From the NCBI GenBank assembly GCA_021234155.1, contig JAJEKV010000066.1, positions 6,856,800-6,920,799 of the forward strand: 64,000 nt of DNA, read 5' to 3'. Made by a program: the position numbers and the translations under genes. Shown here piece by piece: positions 27,414 to 37,344 of this stretch; positions within the stretch are counted from its first letter, which is position 1, and every line of letters starts with the position of its first letter. Below the pieces are notes generated by a model. The model had not been told where the DNA came from and ran no database searches. It saw only the letters and a list, made by a program, of their open reading frames with translations. The DNA comes from Isoetes taiwanensis. Lineage: Eukaryota; Streptophyta; Lycopodiopsida; Isoetales; Isoetaceae.

Positions 27414-29672
27414 TTAGCCATTAGTGTGGCATGGCCTGAGCGAACTGTTTGAAAGTGGAACACAAGTTTGATGCTTCTGATATAGCCTGAGAGACTCTGT
27501 TTCTGCAGATCCATCCATGTAGATCCTACAAGCACCAAGAAAAGCCATCCAGACTGTACTGCTGGGTTGGACTGGCATAGCATCAATGATATGTTTTGCA
27601 TCATGTAAGTGTCCTGCACGGCTGTGAAGGTCTACAAGACATGCATAATGTTCCATCTTTGGTTGAACATTGTATATTTGAGTCATAGAAGCAAAATAAT
27701 GATGACCAAGATCCAGATGTCCCATGTGGCTACATGCCGCAAGAACTGAAATAAAAGTTAACTCATCTGGTTTCACATTACGAAGCTGCATTTGTTCAAA
27801 GAGTTGGAGGACCTCAACACCGTTACCATGCTGTGCATGTCCTGTGATCATTGCATTCCATGAAATAATATCACGGATAGGCATTGCATCGAAAACCTTG
27901 CGACCCAGGTCAATGCTTCCACATTTGGAATACATACCAATTAAAGCATTACCTATAATGATATTTGACTCCATTCCAGCTCCTAAAAGGAGGGTGTGAG
28001 CAGACTTGCCCCAATCTAGAGCTCCTTCACTTGCACATGCACGCAGAACACTAACATAGGTTACCTCGTCTGGCTCCAGCCCATGCTTTTTCATTTGCCC
28101 AAACAGCTCTAATGCCACTCGCCCATCCCCCTGGTCAGCATACGCTGAAATTAACATGGTCCATGGGATGAGGACCTGAATGGGCATTCTATCAAACACT
28201 TGCTTAGCACTGTCAATACTTCCGCATTTTGCATACATGTCAATGAGAGTACTTCCTACAGCAATACTTTGACCATAACCACTTTTAATAAGGCAGGCAT
28301 TAACTTGCTTTCCATATTCTAATAACTGTGCACTTGCACATGCACCTAAGACGCTGATATATGTTACCTTGTCTGGTTTCAAATCATGCTCTTGCATTCG
28401 GCAATAAAGTTCCAAAACATCATCTTCCTTTTGATTTTCTGCATGTGCTGAGATTATTGCTGTCCAGGACACAATATTCTGTCTAGGCATCAATTTAAAC
28501 ACTTTACAGCCATCCTCAGTCCTCCCACACTTAGCGTACATGGCAATCAACGTGCTGCCTACAGAAATGCTTGATTGCAGTGTAGATTTTATTATAAAAC
28601 TGTGAATATACTTTCCCCAGTTTATATCTTGGGCATCTGCACATGCAATAAGAACACTCACATATGTTACCTCATCTATGTTCAAGCTAGATTCTTGCAT
28701 TTCGACAAAAAAATTTATGCATTCAAAGGCATTCCCACATAGAGCATATCCTAACATCAGAGCATTCTGAGAAACAACATCATGTATGGTCATTCTCTGA
28801 AACACCCTATGGGCATCAATAATACTGCCACATTTGGAATACATGTCCACAAGTGTGCCTGCAACAAATACGTGCCACTTTTGATTAATATTTATCAGGC
28901 AAGCATGGATATACCTGCCAAATTCAAGAGCTCCTACTTTTGAACATGCGCCTAATATGCTTATATATGTGACCATGTCTGGCTTCAAACCCTGCTGTTG
29001 CATAATTTGAAACAGAGTCACAGCCTCATTGTTCCCCAGCTGAGAGTATCCTGAAACCAGTACAGTCCATGAGATCTGGTCTCGCTCGTCCATTCTATCA
29101 AATGCATGGCATGTATCTTCAATGCTTTCACATTTTACATACATGCCAATAAGTGCATTCCCCAGATTCAATTCCAAGTTTATTCCTGATTTCTGCAGAT
29201 GACTATGGACGTACTTGCCCCAACATAGACATTTTATGGTAGCACAAGCACTGAGGACAGTCACATATGTCACCTTGTTTGGTTCTAAACCAAGCTGCAT
29301 CATTTGCATAAAGAGCATGATACCAGAGTGTCCATCTCCGCTCCGTGCATACCCATCAATCATAGTTGTCCAGGTGATTATGTCACGTTCTGGCATTTCT
29401 TCAAATACCTTAAAAGCATATTGGGCAATACCAGATTTGGCATAAATGTTTAATAGTATATTCATTAATAGAAGTGGTGGTGGTTGTCCAGACCTGATAA
29501 GGTGGGCATGGACTCCCTTTCCTTTTGAAAGAGCATTTGGTGCTCTACATGTTCTCAAAATAACAAAACAGGCATGCCAGTACAATTTACTATGAGGATC
29601 TATGCTATCCAAAAAGCTCAAGTCCGCCATTAATTTTCTGGTCTTAGATAATACCCTTAAATCCCCTGGCAT
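27414..29672 (-). CDS. PLS-class pentatricopeptide-repeat protein (752 codons)
   Basis: PPR proteins bind single-stranded RNA one base per repeat and guide editing, splicing or cleavage of organelle transcripts. The PLS subclass is linked mainly to C-to-U editing. From about residue 97 the protein shows P-L-S triplets: P motifs of the form DIITWTTMIDGYARSGD (97-113), L motifs such as KVTYVTVLSACATIK (133-147), and S motifs such as LGNALIGMYVKCESIEDT (170-187). About six triplets run to residue 700 and end with the pre-E sequence MEHYACLVDLHSRAGHLHDA (673-692). The E region begins (VWMAFLGACR, 707-716) but soon loses the family pattern and stops at NG-752. A +1 frame continues with a GH..MAK-like E-motif fragment, so the C-terminus looks frameshifted or truncated. 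No E+ or DYW domain follows. The ATG at 29672 has an in-frame TAG two codons upstream, but a spliced upstream start is likely (29848-29967). No strong targeting prediction is possible by eye. Confidence 0.93.
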   Translation of the reverse strand: MPGDLRVLSKTRKLMADLSFLDSIDPHSKLYWHACFVILRTCRAPNALSKGKGVHAHLIRSGQPPPLLLMNILLNIYAKSGIAQYAFKVFEEMPERDIITWTTMIDGYARSGDGHSGIMLFMQMMQLGLEPNKVTYVTVLSACATIKCLCWGKYVHSHLQKSGINLELNLGNALIGMYVKCESIEDTCHAFDRMDERDQISWTVLVSGYSQLGNNEAVTLFQIMQQQGLKPDMVTYISILGACSKVGALEFGRYIHACLININQKWHVFVAGTLVDMYSKCGSIIDAHRVFQRMTIHDVVSQNALMLGYALCGNAFECINFFVEMQESSLNIDEVTYVSVLIACADAQDINWGKYIHSFIIKSTLQSSISVGSTLIAMYAKCGRTEDGCKVFKLMPRQNIVSWTAIISAHAENQKEDDVLELYCRMQEHDLKPDKVTYISVLGACASAQLLEYGKQVNACLIKSGYGQSIAVGSTLIDMYAKCGSIDSAKQVFDRMPIQVLIPWTMLISAYADQGDGRVALELFGQMKKHGLEPDEVTYVSVLRACASEGALDWGKSAHTLLLGAGMESNIIIGNALIGMYSKCGSIDLGRKVFDAMPIRDIISWNAMITGHAQHGNGVEVLQLFEQMQLRNVKPDELTFISVLAACSHMGHLDLGHHYFASMTQIYNVQPKMEHYACLVDLHSRAGHLHDAKHIIDAMPVQPSSTVWMAFLGACRIYMDGSAETESLRLYQKHQTCVPLSNSSLRPCHTNG

Positions 29673-32543: not shown

Positions 32544-32552
32544 ACTTTGGAG
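32544..32552 (+). repeat. MULE target site duplication, left
   Basis: ACTTTGGAG, identical to 37336-37344. Nine bp is the classic duplication length of the Mutator superfamily. Confidence 0.95.
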
Positions 32553-33068
32553 GGCTTAGGATAGTCTTACCCTGGTTTCGGGGATCCCGGAGGTAAAAAT
32601 ACCGTCCTCCGGTATCACCACCAGGGCTCGACGGAACCCGTTCCAGGCCCCTCCATTTCACCGTATTGGCGCACGTGAGGGGCCCTGCACCAATCTCGGC
32701 CGTCCGCTCCGCGCCACATCCGGGCCGTCCGTGGTCTTTCTCGCCTCCGGTATCACCATAAAAAGTACGGGGTGATCCCGCCGTCCGGAATCACCAACAC
32801 GTGATCCCGGCCTCCGGGATCCCCATGCCGTGGCCGATAACTGCGCCCCGATATCAGCCGTGGTGAATCCCTCCTCCGGGATCCCCGAATCCGACGGGTG
32901 TGATCCCCTCCTCCGGGATCACCATCGCTCGGCCGATATCGGCCGCCCGATATACGCCAGGTTATCCCGGCCTCCGGGATCACCACCATGGCCGATATCG
33001 GGGGCCCGAGAATATGCTGTCGTCCGGGATCCCCGCGAGGACTTTTCGGTGAAAACGCCCTCTGGGAT
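32553..33068 (+). repeat. MULE left terminal inverted repeat, about 516 bp
   Basis: Matches the reverse complement of about 36818-37335 at roughly 95% by eye. GC-rich and CpG-rich. It is built of iterated modules of 40-60 bp, each with CTCCGGGATCMCC, alternating with CCGATATCGG palindromes. Such subterminal arrays could be transposase binding sites and are likely methylation targets. Homology ends at the CTCTGGGATCCCC near 33068. Confidence 0.93.
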
Positions 33069-33150
33069 CCCCACGTACTTTATGCATGAAAATCAACGGT
33101 GGCCAGCGACCGTGGACTGATCGAGCGGCTGGTTTTCTACATGCCAGCAC

Positions 33151-34759
33151 ATGCACGGACCAACCATTGAGGTCTGGACACCTGGGATGTTGGAAACCAC
33201 CCTTCGGGATCCCAGTTTTGTCTTCCAGAATTTCTCTGCGCGACTGCATCCACAGACGGATGTTCGAAGCGGCCTGGCAGCTATGGACGTTTGGGGGCTG
33301 GAGGAGAAGATAGCACAGGTATTTATCTGCTTAAGATTATTTTTAGGAGGTAAGAAACTTATATCTGAGCTCCCTTTCTCGCCATTCCCAGCTGCGTGCG
33401 GAAATACATGTGGAGTTACCCCCTAATGGCATTTTCGACCACAGCAACCTACATTGGTTTCCCGAAGAGCACCAAGTTCCTTCTGTACATGGAGGTGGAG
33501 AAATGCTTGTCTGGACCTGCTACTTCCCAACAAACCGGGTTGAAGACTTCATTCTTGGAGAGCAAAGAAATTGTGTGGGACCGTGCAGTTTCTACTTAAG
33601 GAGTTCCAATCCCGAGAGGGTGCTAAAGAGGCCAACCAGGGATTCTTATTTGACTATGAAGAGGTATGTATTTCTAAAACCCTATCCTCTAGTTTACTTG
33701 TGTTGTTTTTGTAGTAGAAAACATTGTAGCAGAAGTATATTTAATTCTTAGAACACTCAAATTTTGAACACTCAAAACAGGTATTGGTGCACATATGGTC
33801 CCCAGGACAAGACTTTGAACACTTGCGTGGTTGCTGATGGACCACGTCAACTTGGCACATGCAGGAAAAGAGTTGAGAGGGGTGAGAGTGTGCGTAGGGG
33901 CTGCCAATGCCATTTTACCATTAGGCAACTCTACCTTCTCCCAGATTGCTCGCAAGTTACTTACTATGGGTTTGAGCATAGAAATCTCCAAGGTGAGCCT
34001 TCCCATGGTAAATTTGTTGACGTAGAGAAAGGTATCAGATTCAAGCTAGCACCGTGGATCTCTCAGGAATTGAGGGAATGGGTTAGAGAAAAGCTCGTGC
34101 ATTGGCACACCCCACGAAGTGTTATGAACATGCACGAGGAGAGGTGGAGATTTAAACTCGATGTGCATGGCAAGGATAGTATGTGTAGGGATGACATGCT
34201 GAAGATCCGGGATGTTTACAACATTGAGAAGAGTGTTGTTAGAAACACTTGGAAGCTACATGAAGACCTTCCCACTAGCATCAACATGTGGGTGCAACAA
34301 CATCTAGAGTCTGTGTTCTTCTATGAACATGGTGACACGTTCCAATTGGGAGTGATGACTCCAATCCAAAGAGAGGCAATGCTGAAGTTTGGAAAGAATA
34401 GGGCCATTTGCACGGATGCAACCTTCAAAACTCATGACAAGAGGTACACTACTTTGGGTTCATTTCCATTCTAGATCTTTTCCATAGTCCATTTAAAATG
34501 GCTATAGCATTTCAATTCTAGATCCAGTGAGAGCTATTGGTTTCTATTATACAGGTACTATCTTTTTACACTCATTGCTTTCGATGACCATTGCAATGGC
34601 TTGCCATTGGCATATGTCATAACCAATTCTAAAAAAACTAGGGCTATAACTAAGTGGTTGAAAGCACTAAAGGATTCACTATGCCTGGATGATCCGGATT
34701 GGCACCCTTCTTGCATCATTACTGACGATGCTGATGTTGAAATCAAGGCCGTAAAAAAT
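33151..34759 (+). pseudogene. MULE transposase, four exons, C-terminally truncated
   Basis: Exons 33151-33318, 33392-33663, 33781-34443 and 34555-34759 join in phase (GT/AG introns of 73, 117 and 111 bp; donors GTATTT, GTATGT, GTACAC) into 436 codons. Transposases of this family cut and join the terminal repeats with a D-D-E catalytic triad. An N-terminal Cys/His region in exon 3 (RRGCQCHF, then H..EPSH) resembles the WRKY-GCM1-type zinc fold of MURA-like proteins. The first catalytic Asp is in CTDATFKT (codon 359, 34415-34417). The second is in IITDDADVE (codon 425, 34724-34726). The fold between them (YYLFTLIAFDDHCNGLPLAY) is typical MULE. Exon 4 ends at a perfect GTAAGT donor (34760), but only about 120 bp remain before the end of the opposing gene, so the catalytic Glu and any SWIM zinc finger are gone. 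The ATG at 33151 is the first in frame. Confidence 0.88.
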
Positions 34760-34882
34760 GTAAGTTCCCAGGCAACTTATCACCCTTCCCCTTTCTTATA
34801 CTTTCTTGCATACTTTCTAACACTACGGTTAATCACCATCTGGAGTCATTAGATTGTAAGTGGGGAATCCATAATAATCTCA

Positions 34883-36250
34883 CTAAACAAAAACAACACT
34901 ATTATCACTCACATCATTCTCCTTGCTGTACATCTCTCTGATGAATTTCTGAACATAACCAATAACATAGATGCCACAGTCCTGGTTGTTGTGCTGTTGT
35001 GGAGCTTCCATCGGAATACAAGGTGCATTATACAACGCTGATGCCTCATGCTTCCACCTCATGAATACATCACTTAAGAACATGCAAGTCAAGTCATTAG
35101 AATACAGCATTGAAATCATAGATTGAAACTGGCAAAGGCACACTCACAAGGTGATGAACCCTCGGACTGAAGCATGGAGGGGCTCATAGGAATCGAAATG
35201 CAGTATGCAAGGACAGGGCTTCTTCAACTTCTGGCATGCCAAAGGATTAGCTACCAAAATGAACAGGCTCCAATGGCCACTGCAAAACACTAGCTGCAAT
35301 AAGTTTAAACTATAACTAGCAGCCTCTACCTCCGCACTCACATCATCATCGTCCAATTGGCCCTGTTCAGAGCTCAAATCACCAAACAAATCCTTATCTT
35401 CTAAATTGCCATGCCGGCTCCTAATCCTTTCCTTGATCTCCCTTATCCTCTCTTCCTGCAATTCACGTTATGTGGCCTCCTTTCTCCGCACCTGTTATGT
35501 GGCCTCCTTTCTCCGCACCTGCAGGTTTATAAACTCGTTTCAGGCCGTGTCATCAAGAAGGCCGAGGGCGATTTGGTCATCTGCCATACGCTCTACTGCT
35601 GCCCTTGCCCTCTGAAGTTTTCTGGTTAGATTGTAGCTAAATTTGAAGTCGAGATCAAGAGATCTCTGAATCCTAATCTTCCCATAATCTCTCACCCTCA
35701 CCTCAGCCTTATTTTTCAGAATTCGACCCCTTGGCGCATCTGGAACCCTGAAATTTTGCCATAACTCATGCAACCTGAACCTATGATTCTCCAGTTCCAC
35801 CTTCCTGCTGTAGGATTTGCTGCAGTCACTGACTTGGCAACGCCATTTTCGACTGAGCTGATCATACCTGTAATCCTTCAAAAATTCTTGAGTTGCCAGT
35901 TCCTCACTTGGATTGACGTTGAAGCATTCAACATTACTTTTCGGGCCCTCATCCTCATCTGCATTCTGGGCATTTTGTTTCACATCTGCATTTCCTTCCC
36001 ATTGACCATTGACTGAACCCTCGGGCCTGGCAACAGGGTTAACCTTCTGTGACGAAGCTCTTTTAGCTCTTGCTTCTGCTCTTAATCTCTTCTTGTTCGG
36101 GGATTGAACCTCTTGGTCGGATTCAATCCCAGCAATATCTTTGAAGCAGTCGGGCAATTTCCAGGCCGAGTTTTCTTCTATTCCCCCATTCCAGTTCTCG
36201 TTAATCGACATATTTAGGCTGATTTCGAGGTTAATCGACTCCTCCACCAT
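34883..36250 (-). pseudogene. C2H2 zinc finger - Ulp1/SENP-like (C48) protease, broken by stops
   Basis: One frame runs from the ATG at 36250 to 35148. Then a GTGAGT donor, a 75-bp intron (35147-35073, ending TTAAG) and a last exon (35072-34883) follow. Residues 52-65 are a basic, nuclear-signal-like stretch. A C2H2 finger has C138, C143, H156 and H161 (WRCQVSDC...NHRFRLH). A long charged helix follows. The protease core shows the C48 triad: His in SGHWSLFIL (35273-35275), Asp in HFDSYEPLH (35192-35194) and Gln/Cys in NNQDCGIYV (Cys 34976-34978). Ulp1-family enzymes remove SUMO-like modifiers. Three in-frame stops interrupt it: TGA 35542-35540, TAA 35497-35495 and TAA 35470-35468. All fit C-to-T changes of CGA or CAA, and the two TAAs belong to a duplicated 27-bp unit. 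Ulp1-like genes are known passengers of some plant MULEs (KAONASHI type). A separate gene joined to a C2H2 finger and facing the transposase is unusual. Confidence 0.87.
35467..35520 (-). repeat. 27-bp in-frame tandem duplication inside the protease gene
   Basis: Two perfect 27-bp copies encode QVRRKEAT plus a TAA stop twice. Because both copies carry the stop, the nonsense change came before the duplication, so the duplication arose in an already dead gene. Confidence 0.95.
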
Positions 36251-36654
36251 CTGTAAATATAATATAACGGGTTAGAATAAGCTTTTAATATAATAAAAAC
36301 AGACATGTCAATGGCGCCTACCTTTAAATATTCGCCAGATGCAACAGCAGCGACAACGCCTGTGGATTCGACAACAATCGGGCCCTTTCCACTCAGAGAC
36401 GGTCGAAAAGGGCAATCGTTCTTGGCGCACAGAGTTCGGACATAGCCATCGCCAAATTGTGCCCCCTTCCTCCGGAATCCCCACTGCAAACGTGGCGACT
36501 CGCTATTGGGACCCGAACGAATAACTGGCGGTTTTCCTGCCCTCCGGTAACACCATGAGTGGATGCCGTACGACACTGACCCTGGTGTTTACTCGCCGTC
36601 AGGCATTAATTCAAACCAGTGGCTTCAATTGCACCACGTGGACGGCCCTCGCTC

Positions 36655-37335
36655 TCGGCCACGCAGTGGTGATCCCGGAGGGCGTTTTCACCGAAAAGTC
36701 CTCGCGGCCATGGTGGTGATCCCGGAGGCCGAGATAACCCTGGCGTATATCGGGGGGCCGATATCAGTCGAGCGATGGCGATCCCGAAGGAGGGGATCAC
36801 ACCCGTCGGATTTGGGTGATCCCAGAGGGTGTTTTCACCGAAAAGTCCTCGCGGGGATCCCGGACGGCAGCATATTCTCGGGCCCCCGATATCGGCCGTG
36901 GTGGTGATCCCGGAGGCCGGGATAACCTGGCGTATATTGGGCGGCCGATATCGGCCGAGCAATGGCGATCCCGGAGGAGGGGATCATACCTGTCGGATTC
37001 GGGGATCCCGGAGTAGGGATTCACCACGGCTGATATCGGGGCGCAGTTATCGGCCACGACATGGGGATCCCGGAGGCCGGGATCACGTGTTGGTGATTCC
37101 TGACGGCGGGATCACCCCGTACTTTTTATGGTGATACCGGAGGCGGAGAACACCACGGACGGCCCGGATGTGGCGCGAAAGCGGACGGCCGAGATTGGTG
37201 CAGGGCCCCTCATGTGCTCCAGTACGGTGAAACAGAGGGGCTTGGAACGGGTTCCGTCGAGCCCTGGTGGTGATACCGGAGGACGGTATTTTTACCTCCG
37301 GGATCCTCGAAACCAGGGTAAGACTATCCTGAGCC
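36655..37335 (-). repeat. MULE right terminal inverted repeat plus inner duplication
   Basis: 36818-37335 is the inverted partner of the left repeat. Inside it, 36655-36817 is a partial extra copy of the repeat's inner part. Both contain TTTTCACCGAAAAGTCCTCG, GGAGGCCGRGATAACC, and the GGAGGGGATCA and YGTCGGATT blocks. The right arm has therefore grown by tandem duplication while the left has not. Confidence 0.9.
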
Positions 37336-37344
37336 ACTTTGGAG
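37336..37344 (+). repeat. MULE target site duplication, right
   Basis: ACTTTGGAG, exact copy of 32544-32552. Confidence 0.95.

Follow-up and report, generated by a model that had tools for sequence, protein, structure and literature searches.

An internally deleted Mutator-like element and its family, in which a transposase gene faces a putative C2H2 finger-Ulp1 protease gene between long terminal inverted repeats

It is proposed that the element at positions 32544-37344 of the 64-kb stretch of contig JAJEKV010000066.1 analysed here (the window) is a deleted copy of a two-gene Mutator-like element (MULE) with long terminal inverted repeats (TIRs), and that the full element probably combined a cut-and-paste transposase with a zinc finger-Ulp1 protein acting as an accessory on SUMO-like tags. 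The window copy is an internally deleted, non-autonomous derivative of its family, an ordinary deletion derivative that could now move only in trans. In the mechanism we favour, the transposase bound at the TIRs would cut and paste the element, the finger-Ulp1 protein would act on proteins bound to the element (the transposase, or factors of repair or silencing), and its removal of SUMO-like tags would let the element be expressed or move.

The borders given by the initial annotation are exact. A 9-bp target site duplication (TSD), ACTTTGGAG, stands at 32544-32552 and again, as an exact copy, at 37336-37344, and the inverted repeats, put at 515 bp before, are a left TIR at 32553-33072 (+) and a right TIR at 36815-37335 (-; about 520 bp), which pair with 95% identity over 521 columns. 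Additional partial repeats of the inner TIR lie just inside the right TIR, at 36666-36814. Both TIRs are 62-63% G+C with a CpG observed/expected ratio of about 1.1, whereas the 5-kb flanks have 0.36 and 0.49. The 9-bp TSD and a MULE transposase domain agree with the MULE superfamily; the complete DDE triad and the SWIM finger are missing from the window copy, in which transposase exons 5 and 6 are deleted.

The spliced transposase reported on one strand was recovered on the forward strand (PF10551 E 2.2e-5, below the cut-off in this copy). A putative exon 1 beginning with ATG (33283-33318) was read by eye with inferred splice sites, and its start is common to four of the five translated siblings; it is followed by exon 2 (33392-33664; 93% by tblastn with the exon of sibling L021), by exon 3 (33779-34444; tblastn 94%), where a motif marks the first catalytic Asp region, and by exon 4 (34556-34759; PF10551, tblastn 96%), which carries the second catalytic Asp and is the last one left. 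At the first deletion junction (34826-34828), which has a 2-bp microhomology (GG), 2692-2940 bp are gone relative to L021 and L018, and by sibling alignment this deletion took the Glu and SWIM exons of the transposase, a central motif array and the final exon of Ulp1. The convergent C2H2-Ulp1 gene of the initial annotation is likewise present on the reverse strand (C48 E 1.2e-5, above the cut-off), as Ulp1 exon 4 (34913-35080; PF02902, tblastn 95%) with PQQHNNQDCG, exon 3 (35150-35281; tblastn 93%) with GHWSLF and ILHFDS, and exon 1a (35333-36250; tblastn 88%). The last of these contains a C2H2 finger of the form C-x4-C-x12-H-x4-H (35768-35842), which matches PF00096 weakly (E 0.011, below the cut-off) and is seen in the sibling fingers as well. 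Between exons 3 and 1a lies the second junction (35319-35321), with a 3-bp microhomology (GCA), where 755-771 bp are gone relative to L021 and L018 and with them exons 1b and 2, the front of the protease domain, so that the gene is left without exons 1b, 2 and 5. Exon 1a of the window copy also has in-frame stops at 35540-35542, 35495-35497 and 35468-35470, in a region that reads through in L010, L016, L019 and L021, and repeat comparison finds a 27-bp tandem duplication in it (35467-35520). The description of the element as complete is therefore dropped, the sibling alignments breaking at exactly these two points. Both deletions, flanked by microhomology, resemble the outcome of gap repair that failed after an excision.

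The plan of the family was read from siblings. A search of the 1.66-Gb genome with the left TIR gave at least 54 matches, the element's own TIRs included, the best 40 of 1024 candidates being scored, and 20 + 4 stretches were taken that represent 22 distinct sibling loci; some stretches stop before the element end, so that counts of an absent gene are upper bounds. The loci are not all independent, because L022 and L015+L016 appear to go back to the duplication of a single element together with its flank. The neighbouring copies L016 (C1026:5558000-5567930) and L022 (C1026:5570750-5580700) have the right flank CCCTTCACC in common, and both show an identical small inversion in Ulp1 exon 2; they are probably such a duplication. 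Exon-by-exon mapping gave ten complete elements, the window copy included. Both genes, in convergent orientation, are present in six of the nine complete siblings (L009, L012, L018, L021, L013+L014 and L015+L016), where one strand holds parts of transposase exons 2-6 and the opposite strand parts of Ulp1 exons 1-5; sibling alignment, as recommended in the initial annotation, thus finds the same convergent partner. The protease gene of the family has five exons, and its product combines a C2H2 finger on the N-terminal side with an Ulp1/C48 domain on the C-terminal side. The complete two-gene elements measure 7.5-15.5 kb; of the longest two, one contains an insertion of about 5.5 kb. Ulp1 exon 1 of L013+L014 (C29:148680-163000), a copy with perfect TSDs, is split by an insertion of about 5.5 kb. 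As to the other complete siblings, L010 has Ulp1 beside a truncated transposase, most of which is lost, L028 has Ulp1 and has lost the transposase, and L011 has a transposase and no Ulp1 (TSD 8/9 with a one-base offset). Perfect 9-bp TSDs flank five of the ten complete elements (the window copy, L012, L013+L014, L018 and L028), and a check with a one-base offset adds L010; L015+L016 matches at 7/9 positions, and L009 and L021 have none.

Across all 22 sibling loci, both genes are convergent in 15, Ulp1 alone is found in one (L028), the transposase alone in five (L011, L017, L020, L025 and L029) and neither in one (L024); among the 15, L023 holds only a piece of Ulp1, and L031 and L010 only pieces of the transposase. 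Ulp1 sequence is therefore kept in 16 of the 22, at odds with the prospect, raised in the initial annotation as one that would undo its reading, of siblings lacking the protease entirely. The transposase domain of L021 matches PF10551 above the cut-off (E 1e-16), and the SWIM match in siblings stays below its own (15.8 vs 19.6 bits). A second Pfam match of the L021 transposase, to the ZSWIM1-3 RNaseH-like domain (E 1.3e-7), is a hint for placing the MULE clade.

Translated from one sibling, with X standing for defects, the finger-Ulp1 protein has 686 residues, with the C2H2 finger at 137-161 (below the cut-off) and the C48 domain at 519-657 (E 5.6e-8, above it). Splice sites in this reading are inferred, and the second intron was joined at the second possible AG, which keeps YYI-VNAS-GHWSLF in frame. 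PF02902 scored 36.4 bits in the first copy against a cut-off of 20.7, and all three domain copies match. GHW, ILHFDS and PQQHNNQDCG align with SENP7, the best solved match (E 2.5e-4; 7.9e-4 by profile), and the domain has the His, Asp, Gln and Cys of Peptidase C48/Ulp1, which we take to be the catalytic residues. When exons 3 and 4 of 15 sibling loci were aligned, Cys and Gln were each found in 14 of 15 (Gln being lost in L030), Asp in 13 of 15, and His in 13 of the 14 that cover it. The finger is intact in nine of the 13 sibling loci in which it could be aligned; in L034 and L035 it is frameshifted.

The protease gene is under purifying selection between lineages. Comparison of L012 or L026 with L019 or L021 gave a synonymous divergence (dS) of 0.52-0.86 and a nonsynonymous to synonymous ratio (dN/dS) of 0.26-0.29 (bootstrap limits 0.21-0.36), or 0.21-0.25 for exons 2-5, and a third Ulp1 lineage, L033, gave 0.41 (0.28-0.56) for exon 1 and 0.19 (0.11-0.30) for exons 2-5. 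Values mostly of 0.19-0.41 between diverged Ulp1 lineages indicate that the protease is a selected component and not a one-off capture. The transposase gave 0.28 between L012 and L021, and 0.84 (0.60-1.23) over 290 codons of the damaged L026. The two halves of the element do not share one history: between L012 and L021 the dS of the transposase is only 0.096 and that of Ulp1 0.78, identities of transposase vs Ulp1 are 96% vs 79% for L012 and 95% vs 89% for L032, and L012, L032 and L033 all have a close transposase beside a clearly more distant Ulp1 lineage. It looks as if the two halves have been reassorted, or as if gene conversion has homogenised the transposase half. Ulp1 identities of 51-57% seen genome-wide were set aside as partly frameshift artefacts, the in-frame pieces being much closer (three such or similar loci), and for this reason only the dS values serve as a measure of Ulp1 divergence.

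The partnership extends beyond the sibling loci. One finger exon gave at least 241 matches in the genome (best 150 of 825 candidates scored) and one transposase exon at least 151 (best 150 of 1462 scored). Among the matches listed, 35 of the 150 for the transposase lie within 20 kb of a finger-Ulp1 exon in convergent orientation, where about 0.1 would be expected, and they pair with 34 different Ulp1 loci out of 115; two others have a finger-Ulp1 exon in another orientation, and 113 have none among the listed rows. A convergent partner accompanies 25 of 49 listed matches at 90% transposase identity or more, 10 of 67 at 75-89% and 0 of 34 below 75%, for which a partner may only be too diverged for the query. 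A host gene captured by the window copy alone, which the initial annotation had named as another outcome fatal to its reading, is rejected, given Ulp1 in the siblings and beside these 35 transposases.

The non-coding parts of the family carry a short repeated motif. In the window, 20 copies of CCTCCGGGATCACCA (up to two mismatches) span 32579-37282, in the TIRs and adjacent non-coding DNA, and all copies in the 64 kb are within the element (0.07 expected). Under the same rule the ten complete elements have 16-42 copies each (0-0.1 expected), with none in mapped internal coding sequence in 10 of 10. In a longer version the motif reads GGTGATCCCGG-n-CCTCCGGGATCACC, an imperfect palindrome that recurs in the array between both genes; single-strand folding of two TIR pieces (z -5.0 and -1.9) reflects no more than the palindrome. 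CpG observed/expected is 0.90-1.12 in the TIRs (ten elements) and 0.87-0.96 in the central array, vs 0.32-0.40 in transposase coding sequence (five elements). After gap filtering, which 52 of 120 TIR pairs passed, the ratio of CpG to non-CpG transitions is 2.0-2.1 in the TIRs and 2.5-3.2 in coding sequence, a weak sign of lower TIR methylation, and CpG is kept outside the motif as well. An unfiltered TIR ratio of 1.16, that is, no CpG excess, was discarded as at least partly a product of misaligned repeats. Elsewhere in the window, a PPR protein gene forms a single open frame of 752 aa at 27414-29672 (-; PF13041 E 6.6e-93), its 5' end about 2.9 kb from the element; a gene of this kind points to a land plant as host.

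Maize MuDR has two convergent genes, mudrA and mudrB, between TIRs and a 9-bp TSD. The present family is like it in its convergent pair between TIRs and in its 9-bp TSD, and unlike it in that the second gene encodes a C48 protease with a finger. Closer relatives are known among MULEs with an Ulp1 gene (ULP), for which, as for the other published systems below, we draw on parts of the papers cited. In grapevine, TIR- and non-TIR-MULEs carry ULP in either orientation, with 9-nt TSDs where found and TIRs that reach 710 bp across the whole set of MULE families covered, and the same paper cites a reverse-oriented ULP in KAONASHI and ULP in TIR-MULEs of melon (PMC2528002). These grapevine and melon elements resemble the present family in their MULE transposase, their TIRs and a downstream ULP that is reversed in some families, and differ in having angiosperm hosts and in that a finger on ULP and a palindromic array go unmentioned in the portions of PMC2528002 consulted. 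KAONASHI of Arabidopsis (KI/KIU) has its Ulp1 reverse to mudrA, as here, and has expanded family-wide; it is non-TIR, unlike our family with its TIRs of about 0.5 kb (about 520 bp in the window copy). VANDAL elements place an accessory protein, VANC, beside the MULE transposase and tandem short motifs in non-coding DNA, where our motif lies too; a possible difference is that our motif is unchanged between the Ulp1 lineages compared, and the likeness is one of sequence. VANC proteins bind tandem motifs (PMC5735166, PMC10398659), and a review describes KIU genes as VANC genes with an Ulp1 domain that are anti-silencing and act on related elements (PMC13317346); the word Ulp1 is absent from the main text of PMC5735166 and PMC10398659, and from PMC6446971, as far as their text was available. 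Ulp1 also occurs in Mutator elements of hydra, lancelet, Arabidopsis, maize, rice and melon (PMC2836005), and Ginger1 is likewise a transposon encoding an Ulp1 domain, which unlike here sits within a Gypsy-integrase-like transposase.

Since similar pairings are known in flowering plants, our family varies a known kind of ULP1-MULE and is no new kind of element. The layout, for which the initial annotation knew of no described fern MULE, is to that extent less new, given the grapevine TIR-MULEs and KAONASHI with reverse ULP (PMC2528002); the finger and the arrays were met in none of the descriptions compared. What marks the family as a variant of ULP1-MULEs is the combination of long TIRs, a convergent finger-Ulp1 gene under purifying selection and palindrome arrays. 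An N-terminal C2H2 finger on Ulp1, palindrome arrays and an Ulp1 more diverged than its transposase were not met in the literature compared, and among the open-access titles listed none is on a non-angiosperm plant MULE with a finger-Ulp1, a scope that leaves most subscription papers outside and is no proof of absence.

What the protease does for the element can be read in several ways. It might be a transduplicated host gene that hitch-hikes without function for the element, as the repeated independent ULP transduplication, or frequent loss, favoured in PMC2528002 would allow and as the complete sibling L011 without Ulp1 would fit; three Ulp1 lineages compared with one another show purifying selection, and many copies have the exon plan and the convergent place in common, which makes this an improbable account. 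An accessory factor is a plausible role for the finger-Ulp1 protein on sequence grounds, and its substrate could lie on the side of the transposase, Ulp1 deconjugating SUMO from the transposase or from repair factors while the element excises, with silencing not its target. Such a role has been proposed for Ulp1-bearing transposons in general (PMC2836005), and the motif accompanies the conserved transposase as well as Ulp1; it does not by itself explain the finger, and we hold it to be a possibility of somewhat less than even weight. We infer local deSUMOylation by the finger-Ulp1 protein, perhaps an anti-silencing one. If it worked like VANC and KIU, the protein would bind the palindromic arrays of its own family and strip silent marks there, as VANC does at VANDAL tandem repeats: the anatomy is that of VANC targets, a short motif repeated outside coding sequence (PMC5735166), KIU offers an Ulp1-containing VANC that acts on related elements (PMC13317346), and CpG is high in TIRs and central array vs transposase coding. 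However, the motif is the same in L012 and in L033, L034 and L035 (43, 35 and 18 copies in the stretches taken for the latter three), which have other Ulp1 lineages, an argument that is not decisive with an in-frame Ulp1 divergence of only about 20% and a finger little changed; since the motif also accompanies the transposase that they share, it need not be the finger's site and could equally be the transposase's, and the transition ratios are a weak sign of lower methylation with CpG kept outside the motif. We regard this version as tentative and rather unlikely.

Several observations weigh against the proposed finger-Ulp1 accessory acting on SUMO-like tags. The closest solved match, SENP7, is weak, and positions 1-84 of the C48 profile are unmatched (the match covers 85-215 of 217), so that the front of the domain appears diverged or absent. 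Asp is lost in the C29 copy and L018, and L031 lacks both His and Cys; four of 13 loci (L010, L028, L031 and L015/L016) have a damaged finger, and L033 has lost a finger Cys. In most siblings examined, one exon or more is interrupted by an in-frame stop or a frameshift. The Ulp1 dN/dS is 0.57 between L012 and L026 and 0.5-0.8 for close copies, values expected if most recent copies are dying and in some cases inflated by frameshifted copies. As L011 has no Ulp1, an element may do without the protease in cis, if the gene did not disappear only after that copy had inserted. Either the finger or the transposase may be the reader of the motif, and the doubt about SUMO as the target of KIU in PMC6117577, of which part was available, limits the SUMO interpretation of the present family.

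The boldest form of the accessory reading is unlikely as a whole: a MULE family of a possibly non-angiosperm plant would have built a DNA-targeted deSUMOylase, a finger-Ulp1 protein guided to its own palindrome arrays, where local SUMO removal would keep copies unsilenced, while a single, younger transposase lineage would have received Ulp1 modules of differing ages by reassortment. The family bears on why Ulp1 proteases recur in MULEs. Within one genome it offers a large family in which many copies with and without the protease, and several selected protease lineages, go with nearly the same transposase; together with a palindromic motif and a finger of DNA-binding type, this opens what Ulp1 does for the element to assays of binding, methylome and transposition.

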